From IMG/VR virus record IMGVR_UViG_3300042906_001465, positions 1-27,037 of that record: DNA of 27,037 nucleotides. The stretch is one strand, 5' to 3'. This stretch comes from a virus. Position 1 is the stretch's first letter. Each line of letters starts with the position of its first letter. The position numbers and the translations under genes were made by a program. Below, piece after piece: positions 2,660 through 12,736 of the stretch. A model generated the notes under the pieces. That model made no database searches. It saw only the letters and a list, made by a program, of their open reading frames with translations, and was not told the DNA's origin.

Positions 2660-3754
2660 TTATTTTTTCAAACGAAGTAATAATAATTCGTTTACAAATT
2701 CCCAATTGACACTGTCCCAAAACTTTTTTACATATTGATCTCGTTTGTTGCGATATCTTAAATAGTATGCATGTTCCCAAAGATCTAGACCTAAAATGGG
2801 ATATCCACCATTTTTAACTATGTTCATCAAAGGGTTATCTTGATTAGGTGTGGACATAATTGTTAATTTGTTTTGTTTATTTAACACTAACCATACCCAA
2901 CCCGATCCAAACCTTTCTTTAGCAACTTCGTTGAACTCATCTTTCATTTTTTTAATATTTGAAAATTGTTTGTTAATCAATTCTAAAGTTTCTTTTTGTG
3001 GTTTTTGTTTTTTGGGTGATAACATTTTCCAAAAAAGAGCGTGGTTAAATGCACCCCCGGCATTATTTCTTATAGTATCATCGAACTTACCTATAGTTTT
3101 TATTATGTCCTCAAGTTCCAAATCCCCATAGTTCTTTTTAGATAGTGCGTCATTTAATTTTTTTACATAACCTTTATAATGTTTATTGTAATGGACATTC
3201 ATTGTTTCAGGATCAACAAACCTCTTTATGGATGAATATGAATAAGGTAATTTTTCAATACCTATTTTTTTCATTTCCAACAAGAAATTTTCGTGGATGT
3301 TTTCTTTTTCTTTTTTTAAGATTTGTTCATTCAGTAACCTTAGTTTTGATTCCAATTTTGTTAGACCTTCATACATAACATTTTCTTTTTCTGGATATTC
3401 TTTTTCGAAAACTTTTATTATTCTACCGGCCTCAGCATTTGCCTCATCTTCATTTTCACCACCAATGTCTGGTCCCTTTTCTCTGTTAAGGACACCTCTT
3501 TGATATTCATGAACCCACTCATGTGCTAAAGTTCTTAGTATATCTCTATTCATCCTACTATTTGTTAAAACAAAAATTTCAGACTTTTCAGTTCTACTAC
3601 CAGTTGACATTCCACCAACTCTTTCACCAGTAAAATTAATAGAAAGGTCTCTCGACAGCGGGTATTCTTTTTGTAAAAGTTTTATAAAAGGATCAATAAT
3701 GTTTTTTAAAGACTCTTTTGGTCCACCGTTAATATGTTTTATTTTTACTTTCAT
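2660..3754 (-). CDS. Zinc metalloprotease domain fused to Mn-type superoxide dismutase
   Basis: A 364-residue two-domain protein in one uninterrupted frame. Residues 1 to about 125 carry HEWVH (78-82), the zinc-metallopeptidase HExxH motif, followed by an acidic EDEANAEAG stretch (102-110) that could give the third ligand. Residues about 168-364 are a complete Fe/Mn superoxide dismutase. It has the LPYSY start, HYNKHYKGY (H188), NNAGGAFNHALFW (H238), GSGWVWLV and LDLWEHAYYLRYRNKR (D324, H328), so all four metal ligands are present. The NNAGG and NQDNPLM (Q305) signatures are those of Mn-type enzymes, which convert superoxide to peroxide and oxygen. The two domains are joined by a Lys/Glu-rich helical linker. 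There is no signal peptide, so a cytosolic or virion location is likely. Two TATTTATA motifs and a terminator precede it, which suggests an independent cargo gene. The domain calls are firm; the purpose of the fusion is unknown. Confidence 0.9.
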   Translation of the reverse strand: MKVKIKHINGGPKESLKNIIDPFIKLLQKEYPLSRDLSINFTGERVGGMSTGSRTEKSEIFVLTNSRMNRDILRTLAHEWVHEYQRGVLNREKGPDIGGENEDEANAEAGRIIKVFEKEYPEKENVMYEGLTKLESKLRLLNEQILKKEKENIHENFLLEMKKIGIEKLPYSYSSIKRFVDPETMNVHYNKHYKGYVKKLNDALSKKNYGDLELEDIIKTIGKFDDTIRNNAGGAFNHALFWKMLSPKKQKPQKETLELINKQFSNIKKMKDEFNEVAKERFGSGWVWLVLNKQNKLTIMSTPNQDNPLMNIVKNGGYPILGLDLWEHAYYLRYRNKRDQYVKKFWDSVNWEFVNELLLLRLKK

Positions 3755-3758
3755 TAGT

Positions 3759-3777
3759 TATAAATATTTTATAAATA
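3759..3777 (-). promoter_or_regulatory. Doubled TATTTATA motif before the metalloprotease-dismutase gene
   Basis: Two exact TATTTATA copies on the minus strand (3770-3777 and 3759-3766), 11 bases apart, end 4 bases before the ATG at 3754. The upstream copy touches the U-tract of the preceding terminator. The nearer copy is probably too close to the start to serve the same transcript, so the farther one is the better promoter candidate. Confidence 0.45.
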
Positions 3778-3800
3778 AAAAACCCCAAACAAATGGGGTT
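3775..3800 (-). terminator. Intrinsic terminator after the 165-residue unknown gene
   Basis: On the minus strand AACCCC, an 8-base loop and GGGGTT form a 6-bp stem (3781-3800) followed directly by a run of T. It lies about 27 bases past the stop codon of the gene at 3828-4325 and ends that transcript before the metalloprotease-dismutase unit. Confidence 0.8.
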
Positions 3801-3827: not shown

Positions 3828-4325
3828 TTAATCTTCGGGTAAAGTTTCTCCCTCTTCATCAAGAATTGCATAAAATTCTTCTAACGTTTCAGCCGCCAAC
3901 AATCTCTCAAGTAAATCAGCATATTCTTCTTCACTGAATAATTCTTGTGCCAAAGTTTTTTTACTTTCAAGTTCATCCTCTAAATCAAGTTCGGTTGTGT
4001 TGTTTGTGTCAAATAGTATTCCCATATTTTGTGCCTTTCCTTCCATACAAGTAAAAAACTTTTGTAACATAGGTACTAAATTTTGTTTTGATTGCATCAC
4101 AAATTGATTTATTTCATTTTTACAAGCGACAAAATCTTCTTTAGTTGTGATTGACATACATCGAGCAGGAAGTTGATCCATGGTCAATCCCAATTGATCA
4201 AAACATTCCATAAAATCATCAGAACTCTCTCTTAAAAGACCTTTGTTTTTTAAATACCGTTGTTCTGCAACAAGATTTAATGTTTGAGTTTTTCTAATTT
4301 TTGTTTGACTTCTACTATTGTTCAT
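3828..4325 (-). CDS. Unknown acidic helical protein
   Basis: A 165-residue protein of unrecognised family. The first 30 residues are basic (RSQTKIRKTQ, QRYLKNKG), while the last 50 are strongly acidic and predicted helical (LEDELESKK, FSEEEYADLLERL, LDEEGETLPED). Four cysteines are spread through the middle (FMEC, ARCMS, VACKN, FTCME), too widely spaced for an obvious zinc knuckle. There is no signal peptide or membrane segment. Its ATG has a TATTTATA motif 12 bases upstream and it ends in a clear terminator, so it seems to be its own transcription unit, 27 bases after the helicase gene. The acidic tail could suit a chaperone, DNA mimic or assembly factor, but nothing in the sequence decides this. 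Confidence 0.65.
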   Translation of the reverse strand: MNNSRSQTKIRKTQTLNLVAEQRYLKNKGLLRESSDDFMECFDQLGLTMDQLPARCMSITTKEDFVACKNEINQFVMQSKQNLVPMLQKFFTCMEGKAQNMGILFDTNNTTELDLEDELESKKTLAQELFSEEEYADLLERLLAAETLEEFYAILDEEGETLPED

Positions 4326-4352: not shown

Positions 4353-6119
4353 TTATTGTTTGTTGATTGAGTTTAATATTTCTTCCACAGTATCTCCAAT
4401 TTCGTTTTGTTGGTTGTCTCCTAAAACAGTACTTATTATTCTTTTTTTCTTATTTAATACGTCATAGATAGTTTTCTCAATTGTGTTTTCGAAAATAGGA
4501 TAATAAACCAAGACATTTGATTTTTGACCAAATCTATACGCCCGGTCCTCTGCTTGAGAATGTTCTGCAGGAACAAATGACAAATCATTCATTATTACAA
4601 CTTCAGCCGCAGTCAATGTTAAACCAACACCAGCGGCTTTCAAGTTACCTACAAAAACTTTTATTTTATCATCAGTTTGGAATCTGTCTACTGCCTGTTG
4701 TCTAACCGAATTTGAACAACTACCATCTAAGTAAACTGCCGATTTTCCAAAGTGTTGATAGATTGATTGTAACGTGTCAGTAAAATTGGTAAAAATAATT
4801 ACTTTTTTTCCTTGGTCTATAATATTTTCAGCAAATTCTATTGTTTGACTAACTTTTTCATTTGCAATTAATTTTCTTACTTGCATTAATTTTGAAAACT
4901 GAACTGTAAGTGAGGAACTTTCTTCACTATTGTTTTTGTACCATTCACGGTATTCACCCATCAAGTTTTTATATTCTTGAGATACAATTCTTAAATAAAC
5001 TGGTGAAATTATTTTGTCGGGTAAGTCCAATACCTCCTCTTTAAGTCTTCTAAGAATTTGTCCAGAAGTTCTTTCCCGAAGTTCTTCTAAATTGGATGCC
5101 CCAGTCACATTCCAAACTTTTCTACCACCGGCATTAAACTGGTACCCTTGACAATAACGAATAGCATAGGCTTTCCAATTTTGGGCCACAGGACTTTCGA
5201 TTATATGTAAAAGGTTATAATAGTTCATCGGTCTACTTGTCATTGGAGTTCCTGTCAATAACCAAACTCTTTTGATATCTTTTACGAAATTGTTTATAAT
5301 TTTAGTTCGTTGGGCTTGGGCATTTGAAACCATATGTGCCTCATCTAAGATTACAAGATCAAAATTTCCTTTAATCAATTCCGAATCCTCCCTGTTTCTG
5401 GGATCTTTATCATGAAAATTTTTCAATATATCATAATTGACGATAACAAAATCGTGTTCAGTAGAAAACTTTTTTCCTTCTGCAATGAAAGTTGATCTAT
5501 CGGTATAGTTTTCAATTTCTCTTTGCCAATTTATTTTCAAAGATGCCGGACAAATTATAAGAATTTTTTTAACACCAGTCTCTAAAGCGGCAATTATGGT
5601 CGATGTGGTCTTGCCCAATCCCATATCGTCCGCCAAAATATACCTTTTAGACCCGACTAACTTTTCGATTGCTTCCTTTTGATGGGGAAGTGGAGGTCTT
5701 TGTGAATATTTTTCATAATCAATAACAACTTCTTCAGTAGAATGAGTCTTTATAAGTGAAGATTTAGGAACCCAAAATTCTTTTAGTTCATCCTCTTCAA
5801 AAAATTTTCCCCAAATATGGTAGGATTTTTCTTTTTCCACTAACAATTTTTCAACATATACTTGTTCAGGTACTTTGAGTAAGTATTTTTCCTCTGAAAA
5901 CTTCTGTGCAAAATATGAATCTAAAGTAACCCATTTTCTAGCAACCTTGGGAATTGTCTCATGATAATTTAAAACATAATCCGCTTGAGATCTTGTTAAG
6001 TAAAATTTTTTAGATTTTTGATGTTTACCCTTTAAATAGAGAATATAGTTATTTGCCCCAGAATATGTTTCCAATAATTCTAGGGCTTTAAATTCTATTA
6101 AAAGAGTATTCGAATCCAA
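4353..6119 (-). CDS. SNF2-family DNA helicase/translocase
   Basis: A 588-residue superfamily 2 ATPase of the SWI2/SNF2 type (SMARCAL1/HepA-like core), expected to translocate on duplex DNA during replication, repair or fork remodelling. Motifs in order: LPHQKEAI near 144-151, Walker A DDMGLGKTT (164-172), DEAH (259-262), LTGTP (288-292), then a helicase C-terminal half with IIFTNFTDTL, GVGLTLTAA and motif VI QAEDRAYRFGQ (522-532). All core motifs are intact. An N-terminal region of about 140 residues precedes the core. No in-frame ATG opens this frame after the last upstream stop. The start used here is TTG at 6117-6119. An ATG with a typical A-rich leader lies at 6144-6146 in the same frame but is followed after five codons by TAA (6129-6131). 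It is divergent from the gp14-like gene. Confidence 0.92.
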   Translation of the reverse strand: MDSNTLLIEFKALELLETYSGANNYILYLKGKHQKSKKFYLTRSQADYVLNYHETIPKVARKWVTLDSYFAQKFSEEKYLLKVPEQVYVEKLLVEKEKSYHIWGKFFEEDELKEFWVPKSSLIKTHSTEEVVIDYEKYSQRPPLPHQKEAIEKLVGSKRYILADDMGLGKTTSTIIAALETGVKKILIICPASLKINWQREIENYTDRSTFIAEGKKFSTEHDFVIVNYDILKNFHDKDPRNREDSELIKGNFDLVILDEAHMVSNAQAQRTKIINNFVKDIKRVWLLTGTPMTSRPMNYYNLLHIIESPVAQNWKAYAIRYCQGYQFNAGGRKVWNVTGASNLEELRERTSGQILRRLKEEVLDLPDKIISPVYLRIVSQEYKNLMGEYREWYKNNSEESSSLTVQFSKLMQVRKLIANEKVSQTIEFAENIIDQGKKVIIFTNFTDTLQSIYQHFGKSAVYLDGSCSNSVRQQAVDRFQTDDKIKVFVGNLKAAGVGLTLTAAEVVIMNDLSFVPAEHSQAEDRAYRFGQKSNVLVYYPIFENTIEKTIYDVLNKKKRIISTVLGDNQQNEIGDTVEEILNSINKQ

Positions 6120-8450: not shown

Positions 8451-11400
8451 ATGGCTACTAACAGTAAAGTATTTGTATCCCCAGGTGTCTATACTTCCGA
8501 AGTTGATTTAAGTTTCGTTGCTCAGAGTGTGGGGGTTACTACCCTAGGTATTGCTGGGGAAACCTTGAAAGGTCCGGCATTTGAACCCATATTCATTAGA
8601 AACTACGACGAATTTACAACTTATTTTGGAGGAACATCACCTGAAAAATTTGTGAATACACAAATTCCCAAATATGAAGCAGCGTACATCGCTAAATCTT
8701 ATTTACAACAATCAAATCAGTTATTTGTAACAAGAATTCTTGGTTTATCTGGTTATGATGCAGGACCATCTTGGTCTATAGTTACTGAAGGAAATGTAGA
8801 TCCAACAACCATAGATGTTTGGTGTTTAAGTGCGGTTACACCGTCAGGTACTTGTGTCCCTGTTTGTGTACTTCCTAAAACTGAACCGTTTATTGTCGAC
8901 TTTACTGGTTGTACTAACAGTGATGGAACTATTTCTTTCTTATCTAATTTCCCAACTGAAATTGAAAATCTTTTAACCACTCCTTATCAGGGTCCTCAAG
9001 GAAATCAATCATCTCTGAATCAAAATATTAAAGATTTAATTTTTGACGTTATAACTTCAAACAACCCTGCAATTACTGAAGATGAACTTATTAGTTATTT
9101 CGGTAGTGTTGATGGTGCTGATTACAGTGCATTGACTGTTAATGGAAGTTACACTGGAGCAACTAATGTATTTGGTGTTCCTGCAATTCCATTTGAAGAT
9201 AATGATTTGTCTTCAGTTAATAACGATCCTTGGTTTTACGCATTATTTGATAATACAGGAAATGGTAATTATACAGGATATTCATTTTGGGCAATTGTTA
9301 CCGGGGTAACGAACATCAATCCAGTTACTACAACAACTACCGGAACTATTCCAACCCCAACACCTACACCTTCAGCACAAAATCCTTGTGTTTCTCCATT
9401 ACCTTTTACCTCACCTACTCCTACCCCTACACCAGTTAATATTGACTGTTATTCCGGATCAGTTGTTGGTGTTGTATATTATTACACAGGAAACACTTAT
9501 AATGATTATGATGATATGGTAGTCGCTACCTTTAGATCACGAGGTGTGTCATATTACAATGATGGTACTAATCCTGATTTTGAAGTAAGTGGATTAACTC
9601 AAGTATCCTTAGACTTCTCTAATCAATACTCTGGAGTTACTAAAAATCCTTTCTTAACTTTTGGAGTTAATGTGACAAATAATTCAGGGACTAATTTCTT
9701 CTATGAAACATCTTTCAATACTTCAGATGCAAACTACTTAACTAAAGTATTTGGAGTTGACAATTTTGGTAAGCCAAGAACACAAGTTCCAATTTTTGTT
9801 GAGGAAAGATTCCAAACATTATTAAGTTATGGTTGGAGAAAAGGTTTCATCAAGGGTCTTAGTGCTGTCTTGGTTGACTTGGATAATGTTACGGGTCTGA
9901 ATAACGCACCAAGTACTTCAATTGCTTGGTACTTAGACAGATATCAAACACCAAAATCACCTTGGGTTGTTTCTGAATTACGAGGTACAAAAGTGTATGA
10001 TCTATTTAGATTTTACACGGTTGCTGATGGAGATTCTGCTAACTACAATGTTAAAGTTTCAATTTTCAATATCTCATTTGCGAACGAAACATTTGATGTA
10101 ATGATTCGTGACTATTATGATACGGATTCAAACCCAACAGTTTTAGAGAAATTTACTAACTGTTCAATGGACCCAAGTCAAAATAACTTCATTGCTAAAA
10201 AGATAGGATCACTCGATGGTGAATATGAATTGAATTCAAAATATGTAATGGTCGAACTAAATGAGGATGCACCAGTAGATGCCCTTCCTTGTGGATTCGA
10301 TGGTTATATGTTCAGAACTTACTTCGGAGCAAATCCTCCTTTCCCAATTTACAAAACTAAATATGATTTCCCAGGTGAAGTAATTTACAATCCTCCGTTT
10401 ACAGGACCTATTCTAAGTTCTGGAGATAATGTGAGAAGAACTTACCTTGGGTTCTCAAATAGTATTGGATATGACTCCAACTTCTTTGAGTATGTTGGTA
10501 AACAAAATCCTCTTGACAGTTGTGCTCTTGAAGGTATTGATTGGGATTACAGGACTCGAGGATTCCATATGGATAAAAACGCATCTGGAATTACAATTTC
10601 TGGACCATTCACTTCTAATGGAACCCCTAGATTCTATGTTGGTGATGCTGACTTCAGTGTTGAGCCAACAAGTGCAACTAGTCCTTACTACCGTTTGTAC
10701 TCTAGAAAATATACCTTATTAGTTCAAGGAGGCTTTGACGGATGGGATATCTATAGAGAACATAGAACTAATTCTGACAGATTTGTATTAGGGGCATCAG
10801 GTTATCTGAATGGGGCTTGTCCTGATAACCGATATCCAAATGCAATTGGTTGGGGAGCGTTCAAACAAATCTCTTTAGGAGATGGGACGATGGATTGGGC
10901 GAACACTGACTATTATGCATACTTGTTAGGTATCAGAACTTTTGCAAACCCGGAATCAGTTAATATTAACGTGTTTGTGAGTCCTGGAATTGATTATGTA
11001 AATAACAGTAATTTGGTTGAAGCAACAATTGAAATGATTGAAAACGAAAGAGCCGACTCACTTTATATTACAACTACCCCTGACTACAATATGTTCCTAC
11101 CTACAACAACTGGTATAGATGGTTTGATTTACCCACAAGAGGCTGTAGATAATCTTGAACAATCAGGAATTGATTCTAACTACACCGCAACTTACTATCC
11201 GTGGGTTCTTACAAGAGATACAGTAAACAATACACAAATCTATATTCCGGCTACAGCGGAGGTTACTCGAAACTTAGCATTAACTGATAACATCGCATTC
11301 CCTTGGTTTGCAGCGGCTGGGTACACTCGTGGTATTGTAAACTCAATAAAGGCACGTAAAAAACTGACACAGGAAGATAGAGATACTCTATACACAGGAA

Positions 11401-11887: not shown

Positions 11888-12736
11888 ATGAACTGGTTAC
11901 CAGGAAAGTTAAGAATGTATATGAATGATTGGGATGATAATCTTTTATTTATGCCAACCAAAATAAGAATGGAAAAAAAGGTTGATAAAAAATGGGTTGA
12001 GGTCTGGGTATCAACGTTAGAATTTTCAGAAGTTAGATTAAATTCTGATTACCGACCTTACAAAAACAAAATTGAGTTGGCTTTTAAAAATTTTCGAGAA
12101 ACAGAACCTTTTATTAATGATCTGAATTATTGTATAGAAAATAAATTATTCGGACCAAGTTTCTTGAAATTTAAAGAATCTTTAATTTATGCGAATCCAG
12201 TTGCAATAAACACCGCTAGAGGTCACAAACCAAACGACTTAAAAATGGGGGTTAAGTTACTTATTGAAAGAACTTTCACACAAGAAGAAAGAAAAATAAT
12301 GGTCAGTAATATACAAAAATCTTATTTTTATGAGAAAAAATATGATCTGAAATTTTTGAATTCTTTGTTTAATGACCTTGATGATAAAATAATCGATTTT
12401 TACCTCAACGATAAGGTATCATATTATACAGTCTCATCAGAGGATTTTGCCAATTCTTTTAAATCTGAAATTAATAATACTGCATTAAATCCAAAACTAG
12501 GGAAAAAAATTGCAATAAAAGATTTTATAAAAAAAATATTAAATGATATTTATAGAAGTAATAATCCAGATTTAAACAAAATTTCATTTGGTTATTCAGA
12601 AGACGATAAAGAATTGGTTAACGCTATTATAGATTATATTAAAAAAGAATTATTATTTATTTATCCAAATATTCATTTTGTTATATACGATAATTCAAAT
12701 AATAAAACTAATAAAATTATAATTAATAATTATTAA
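11888..12736 (+). CDS. Unknown protein inserted between sheath and tube genes
   Basis: A 282-residue protein of unrecognised family. The start at 11888 (MNWLPGKLRMYMNDW) has an A-rich leader (AAAAAAAAGTT). No GIY-YIG, HNH or LAGLIDADG motif is visible, so it is not an obvious homing endonuclease, although that was considered because such genes often sit between T4 structural genes. The middle contains a Lys/Ile/Asn-rich helical stretch, and the protein ends in a very Asn-rich tail (DNSNNKTNKIIINNY). The 3' part is even more A/T-rich than its neighbours. It is flanked by the sheath terminator and a hairpin over its own stop codon, so it looks like a self-contained cargo gene. In T4 the sheath and tube genes are adjacent. 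Confidence 0.6.
   Translation: MNWLPGKLRMYMNDWDDNLLFMPTKIRMEKKVDKKWVEVWVSTLEFSEVRLNSDYRPYKNKIELAFKNFRETEPFINDLNYCIENKLFGPSFLKFKESLIYANPVAINTARGHKPNDLKMGVKLLIERTFTQEERKIMVSNIQKSYFYEKKYDLKFLNSLFNDLDDKIIDFYLNDKVSYYTVSSEDFANSFKSEINNTALNPKLGKKIAIKDFIKKILNDIYRSNNPDLNKISFGYSEDDKELVNAIIDYIKKELLFIYPNIHFVIYDNSNNKTNKIIINNY

Follow-up and report, generated by a model that had tools for sequence, protein, structure and literature searches.

The locus at positions 2660–3754 of the window (the whole stretch of viral DNA that was analysed, 27,037 nucleotides in length) raises the question of whether a phage truly encodes an HExxH metalloprotease-like domain and a superoxide dismutase (SOD) as one protein and, if so, where such a protein would act. 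A sequence-only reading had noted an uninterrupted frame of 364 codons at this location, with an HEWVH motif near the protein start, a full Mn-type SOD behind the HExxH part, the metal ligands H188, H238, D324 and H328, and the NNAGG and NQDNPLM motifs. All of these features were recovered as claimed. The gene encodes 364 amino acids in one open frame without a break, which runs from position 3754 down to 2660 on the minus strand, an orientation that the earlier reading left unstated, and is matched by full-length relatives. Each part of the gene described below is likewise on the minus strand.

An assembly or frame error that joined two genes is practically impossible, since over 100 distinct proteins from many metagenomes are fused at the same joint. 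These proteins were gathered from hundreds of contigs, and the contig counts are not independent because some contigs represent the same phage in different samples. A search of viral contigs yielded 423 relatives, of which the best 80 were used. Within this set, identity is approximately 64–71%, one identical record apart, and nearly all sequences align over residues 1 to 364. Neither a missing stop between the domains nor a lineage in which the two are always separate genes, both of which had been raised in the sequence-only reading, was encountered. Rather, fused forms dominate, protease-less forms occur, and no genome carrying the protease-like domain and the SOD as two separate genes was found among the relatives. 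Purifying selection acts on all three parts of the protein, with dN/dS values of 0.09 for the N domain, 0.11 for the linker, and 0.05 for the SOD, the lowest of the three.

The SOD (residues 161–364, positions 2663–3274) is identified by matches in Pfam and the PDB. Both Sod_Fe_N (residues 166–246, E 1e-19) and Sod_Fe_C (residues 253–356, E 3e-38) score over the cut-off, and a phmmer search of the PDB places Mn SODs closest (E 1e-59). The ligands H188 (3191–3193), H238 (3041–3043), D324 (2783–2785) and H328 (2771–2773) are conserved in relatives. Moreover, all four ligands and the NNAGG and NQDNPLM motifs are kept in 147 of 147 distinct complete phage SOD proteins. The Pfam domains, ligands, and motifs place the protein in the Fe/Mn SOD family as a Mn-type member, for which dismutase activity is predicted. 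In a tree of SOD sequences, the phage proteins all fall on one branch (97/91), and 20 changes of architecture are counted along the tree. Cellular sequences are sparse in this tree, as the search patterns matched only 18 genome loci, and the nearest sampled one is from Fluviicola (Bacteroidota).

Alignment, structure modelling, and Foldseek suggest that residues 1–118 (positions 3401–3754) form a gluzincin-like HExxH domain related to IrrE-like phage proteins. Its AlphaFold2 model has a pLDDT of 87.5, and the Foldseek match against BFVD has an E value of 7.6e-13. The HEWVH motif (residues 78–82, positions 3509–3523) is invariant, as is E104 within NEDEANA (3443–3445), a candidate third metal ligand. 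Thus, the domain contains both HExxH and the conserved downstream acidic residue of metallopeptidases. HExxH is kept in 54 of 54 and 25 of 25 fused proteins retrieved with SOD-based queries, and its conservation is therefore no product of the search pattern. The exact EAN spacing pattern downstream of HExxH is seen in only 5 of 25 proteins in the more distant relative set.

Like IrrE and the Peptidase_M78-like HExxH proteins of phages, the domain combines HExxH with a downstream glutamate, and its best fold matches are among viral models, including an IrrE-like model (E 3e-7). Some of these IrrE-like matches also reside in large multi-domain proteins. Unlike IrrE and Peptidase_M78 members, however, the domain yields no match over the cut-off to any curated profile in Pfam or PHROG, including M78 and other peptidase profiles; in one relative, the M78 profile gives an E value of 0.098, which is below the cut-off. 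A profile search of the PDB returned nothing significant and no PDB match was below 1e-3, the best fold matches in that database being weak ones to M61 (E 7e-3) and YbeY (E 1e-2). No match was found in phage isolates when the N domain was searched alone.

The two domains, both ordered in the model, flank a linker (residues 119–160, positions 3275–3400) whose predicted structure has low confidence. Confidence is lowest at residues 130–145, and a long helix is predicted at 132–163. Linker sequences diverge among 103 distinct proteins, and the exceptions are three glutamates, E129, E143 and E160, which are invariant or almost so. In the alignment, E129 lies within the first conserved site, MYE|G (3368–3376), where M/V/I-Y/F-E is present in 103 of 103 proteins. 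The other two glutamates define candidate prohead-protease sites, namely LNE|Q at E143 (3326–3334), with L or I at P3 in 101 of 101 proteins, and LLE|M at E160 (3275–3283), which adjoins the SOD and has L or I at P3 in 102 of 103. For comparison, these residues occupy P3 at 21% of all glutamates in the fused proteins. An (L/I/V)xE sequence directly precedes the SOD in 147 of 147 proteins of every architecture, and the joint between the SOD and a third module found in some relatives also carries (L/I/V)xE, with S, T or N as the usual next residue (54 long forms counted).

The prohead protease gp21 of phage T4 cuts after L/I-X-E. Short N-terminal sequences with this ending direct T4 internal proteins into the head and are removed by gp21 (PMC9026906; PMC3012670). 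At the level of sequence, the domain borders of the fusion carry sites of this type, as expected of a gp21-processed internal protein. Because conserved sites of the prohead-protease type lie between them and point to separation, the N domain and the SOD probably do not act as a single enzyme.

Relatives of this gene exhibit several architectures at the same locus. In addition to the N domain plus SOD arrangement of the window, there are proteins with N domain, SOD and third module, proteins with SOD and third module that lack the N domain, and proteins in which the SOD stands alone behind 30–60 residues. In some SOD-alone forms the first residues (such as MEVNIKYNG...) resemble the beginning of the N domain, which indicates that the protease core was lost by in-frame deletion. 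The constant core of the locus is therefore the SOD and not the protease.

The third modules span approximately 100–380 amino acids and fall into several classes. In classes 0 and 1, alignment motifs recognized by eye (E...D...QVK and SCK patterns) resemble those of PD-(D/E)xK nucleases, and the third module is probably a nuclease. Searches of the third modules against Pfam and PHROGs gave no significant match, apart from a weak one to a PHROG without assigned function, and a profile search of class 1 against the PDB gave nothing significant. The class-1 module also occurs as a stand-alone protein in related phages (L331, L334 and L340), where its N-terminus ends in LLNE|M. Examples of third modules with PD-(D/E)xK-like patterns and no family match are found at L043:6087-7094, L219:4613-5671, and in their relatives. 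Relatives of approximately 700 amino acids were also considered as three-part fusions with the neck protein, and this was ruled out because the neck protein remains a separate gene.

In relatives with enough flanking sequence, gene order is constant: a SNF2-type helicase, the fusion gene, an Ad2-like neck gene, a small gene, and a DNA polymerase on the other strand. In the window, the UvsW-like SNF2-type helicase upstream occupies positions 4353–6119 and the Ad2-like neck (head-tail adaptor) gene downstream occupies 1509–2636, both on the minus strand. Tail sheath genes are on the other side of the fusion locus in relatives. The earlier description of a cargo-like gene does not hold, as this is a fixed syntenic gene of the whole lineage rather than isolated cargo.

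The same reading had proposed that the gene follows a terminator and has promoter-like motifs of its own, which is plausible. A terminator-like hairpin (3781–3800, minus strand) lies just upstream of the gene, between it and an ORF for a 165-amino-acid protein. This hairpin is weak on its own because four such sites occur in the region versus 2.9 expected by chance; a GC-rich stretch followed by a T-run recurs upstream of the fusion gene in many relatives. The scan for sigma-70 promoters near the gene found sites no more often than expected by chance. In contrast, the motif ATATTTAT (3760–3767, minus strand), a candidate late promoter element, is kept with at most small changes before the gene in relatives. 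In a 304-kb relative (G001) this motif precedes 58 genes versus 2.1 expected, with peaks at 4–6 and 14–15 bases before the start codon, and the genes behind it include those for terminase, prohead protease, scaffold, neck and tail proteins, as well as genes with the N-terminal tags described below. It is therefore a candidate late expression signal, acting either as a promoter or in translation. The 165-amino-acid neighbour (3828–4325, minus strand), present in 21 of approximately 80 loci, has LVAEQRYL and GLLRES near its N-terminus and is perhaps another packaged protein.

The window is a 27-kb fragment without head genes, and evidence regarding the head protease and capsid comes from the genomes of relatives. 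These encode a Peptidase_S77 (gp21-type) prohead protease and a Gp23-type capsid protein, which could be read in four of eight relative records (G001, G002, G003 and G007), the others being fragments or too divergent. In the protease, the LNHP (histidine) and SSRG (serine) motifs known from T4 gp21 are retained. The sequence SFLTE|A of the T4 capsid protein corresponds to SFLINE|A in that of the relatives.

Of the 315 genes in the 304-kb relative, 63 encode an N-terminal [LIV]xE[SAQTN], compared with 30.7 ± 4.5 by chance as judged from internal stretches. Two near-identical N-terminal L/I-x-E tags (MKKVIRLTESDLTRIVKRVINE and MKIIITESQ..., with cores RLTESDL... and IITESQ...) are common to 28 proteins of this genome (L272-L287) with 27 unrelated bodies. 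Such tags on unrelated bodies match the expected look of a portable head-targeting signal. On the basis of their sequences and distribution, the two tags are likely head-targeting sequences, which would predict a large set of packaged proteins. Their association with ATATTTAT is weak (p 0.011). The text RLTESDL was not found in the literature, and a search of isolate phages with the tag peptide gave no match, a 24-residue sequence being a weak query. One gene with a DWDDNL motif has apparent homologues that differ at this end, with a tag-like N-terminal extension, MNYSVLTRQIIKEMVNE, present in G001 (214321-215220) and absent in the window (11888-12736).

Ribosomal protein bS21 is phage-encoded in G001 (135021-135179), G002 (9466-9615) and G016 (156097-156255), and in G001, G002 and G007 its gene is located within the block of terminase, portal, protease and capsid genes on the opposite strand. 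The closest capsid proteins among isolates include that of Flavobacterium phage immuto. Because bS21 is a mark of freshwater Bacteroidota phages (PMC9723584) and a Flavobacterium phage is among the closest isolates by capsid protein, the hosts of this lineage are likely Bacteroidota.

We consider it moderately probable that the fusion is a head-packaged polyprotein from which separate enzymes are cut and carried into the cell along with the DNA. A late gene of large T4-like phages on freshwater Bacteroidota would produce a polyprotein that is packed into the prohead, where the gp21-type protease would cut after the L/I-x-E sites and free the metalloprotease-like domain, the Mn SOD and, in relatives, the third module that is probably a nuclease. 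The freed enzymes would then travel into the cell with the phage DNA, as T4 internal proteins do. There, or already within the particle, the SOD would most likely lower superoxide around the genome in aerobic, sunlit water. We infer packaging, cleavage, delivery, enzyme activity and a benefit of the SOD from what is observed: the fusion with its conserved active sites, L/I-x-E sites at each of the joints, modules exchanged at one fixed locus, and a lineage protease with a matching capsid site. The broader proposition, in which a multi-enzyme delivery polyprotein of metalloprotease, Mn SOD and nuclease is accompanied by dozens of unrelated proteins directed into the head by the two portable tags, seems to us evenly poised between right and wrong.

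The sequence-only reading had suggested a virion protease that carries a dismutase, perhaps as an anti-defence or ageing shield. A virion-borne protein fits the evidence best and the fusion is real, but the SOD persists in many relatives whose protease core has been removed by in-frame deletion. The weakest step of the proposed mechanism is targeting of the window protein, whose model is folded from residue 3 and which lacks a short N-terminal capsid-targeting sequence ending in L/I-x-E. N-termini of this type are seen in SOD-only relatives and in relatives with stand-alone modules; the targeting signal of the window protein, if any, would therefore be the linker or the N domain. Further points count against packaging, in that L/I-x-E is a short motif, a nuclease in the head would need to be prevented from attacking the phage genome, and no virion proteomics for such phages was found.

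SOD is a usual oxidative-stress gene, and the protein might instead be a bifunctional cytoplasmic product of an auxiliary metabolic gene, unpackaged, with the SOD (and protease) acting in the infected cell and the L/I-x-E glutamates merely part of a helical linker. The long helix at residues 132–163 of the model would suit this possibility, as would the SODs examined in isolate phages (the PA5oct group and Vibrio phage 2.275.O), which are stand-alone and encoded amid ClpX, ClpS and heat-shock or translation genes. It is nevertheless unlikely given that the linker glutamates have a conserved L or I at P3, that this motif recurs at all other joints and persists after protease loss, that the same genomes contain a matching capsid site and portable tags, and that a neck gene adjoins the locus. 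That neck gene, directly behind the fusion gene, could also suggest that the SOD fold serves as a building element of the head or neck and that its activity is irrelevant. This is very improbable, as the four ligands and Mn-type motifs persist in every complete phage SOD examined (147 of 147) and, of the three parts, the SOD shows the lowest dN/dS.

A special case of the packaged polyprotein is that the SOD is active inside the particle, where it would guard the capsid DNA during persistence in sunlit water and would not be needed in the cell. There is precedent in chlorovirus PBCV-1, where a functional Cu/Zn SOD expressed from a late gene is packaged (PMC7019647), and bS21 phages of a near lineage show their highest activity in oxic lake water (PMC9723584). 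However, this arrangement leaves the protease-like and nuclease-like modules of the same chain unexplained, and we regard it as doubtful, to the same degree as cytoplasmic action.

The closest known parallel to a polyprotein delivered from the head is provided by the T4 internal head proteins (IPI, IPII, IPIII and Alt), which are cut by gp21. Their system shares with this lineage the L/I-x-E sites, the gp21- and gp23-type proteins and diverse bodies behind conserved targeting sequences, and late expression is likely for the fusion as well. Unlike those proteins, the chains described here carry several enzyme modules with sites between them, the cargo comprises Mn SOD, HExxH and nuclease-like modules, and packaging is predicted from sequence. 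The stand-alone Fe/Mn SODs of the PA5oct group and Vibrio phage 2.275.O belong to the same family as the fusion but are only approximately 25–26% identical and reside in metabolic clusters, not next to head or neck genes. PBCV-1 is a virus with an SOD in its particle, and it differs in being a eukaryotic virus with a single protein of the Cu/Zn family (PMC7019647). The bS21-encoding Bacteroidota phages are very probably of the same or a near lineage; they are freshwater phages of up to 331 kb with a bS21 gene on the reverse strand, next to those for terminase, protease and capsid, the authors suggest that bS21 may be packaged, and no dismutase is mentioned in the main text (PMC9723584).

Taken singly, the SOD family, the HExxH proteins, and head processing of the T4 type are all known, whereas a conserved, modular protease-SOD(-nuclease) chain with processing sites at each of its joints was not found described in the literature searched, and neither was a phage SOD fusion or an SOD in a phage virion. 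We know of no protease cutting of the PBCV-1 SOD. If the delivery reading is true, this would be, to our knowledge, the first phage-delivered SOD. Widespread lake phages of aerobic Bacteroidota would then bring an antioxidant and other enzymes from the start of infection, which would suggest that superoxide is a real obstacle to incoming phage genomes or stored particles. The L/I-x-E joints and portable tags would also provide a sequence rule that predicts packaged and delivered proteins among the many unknowns of this lineage.
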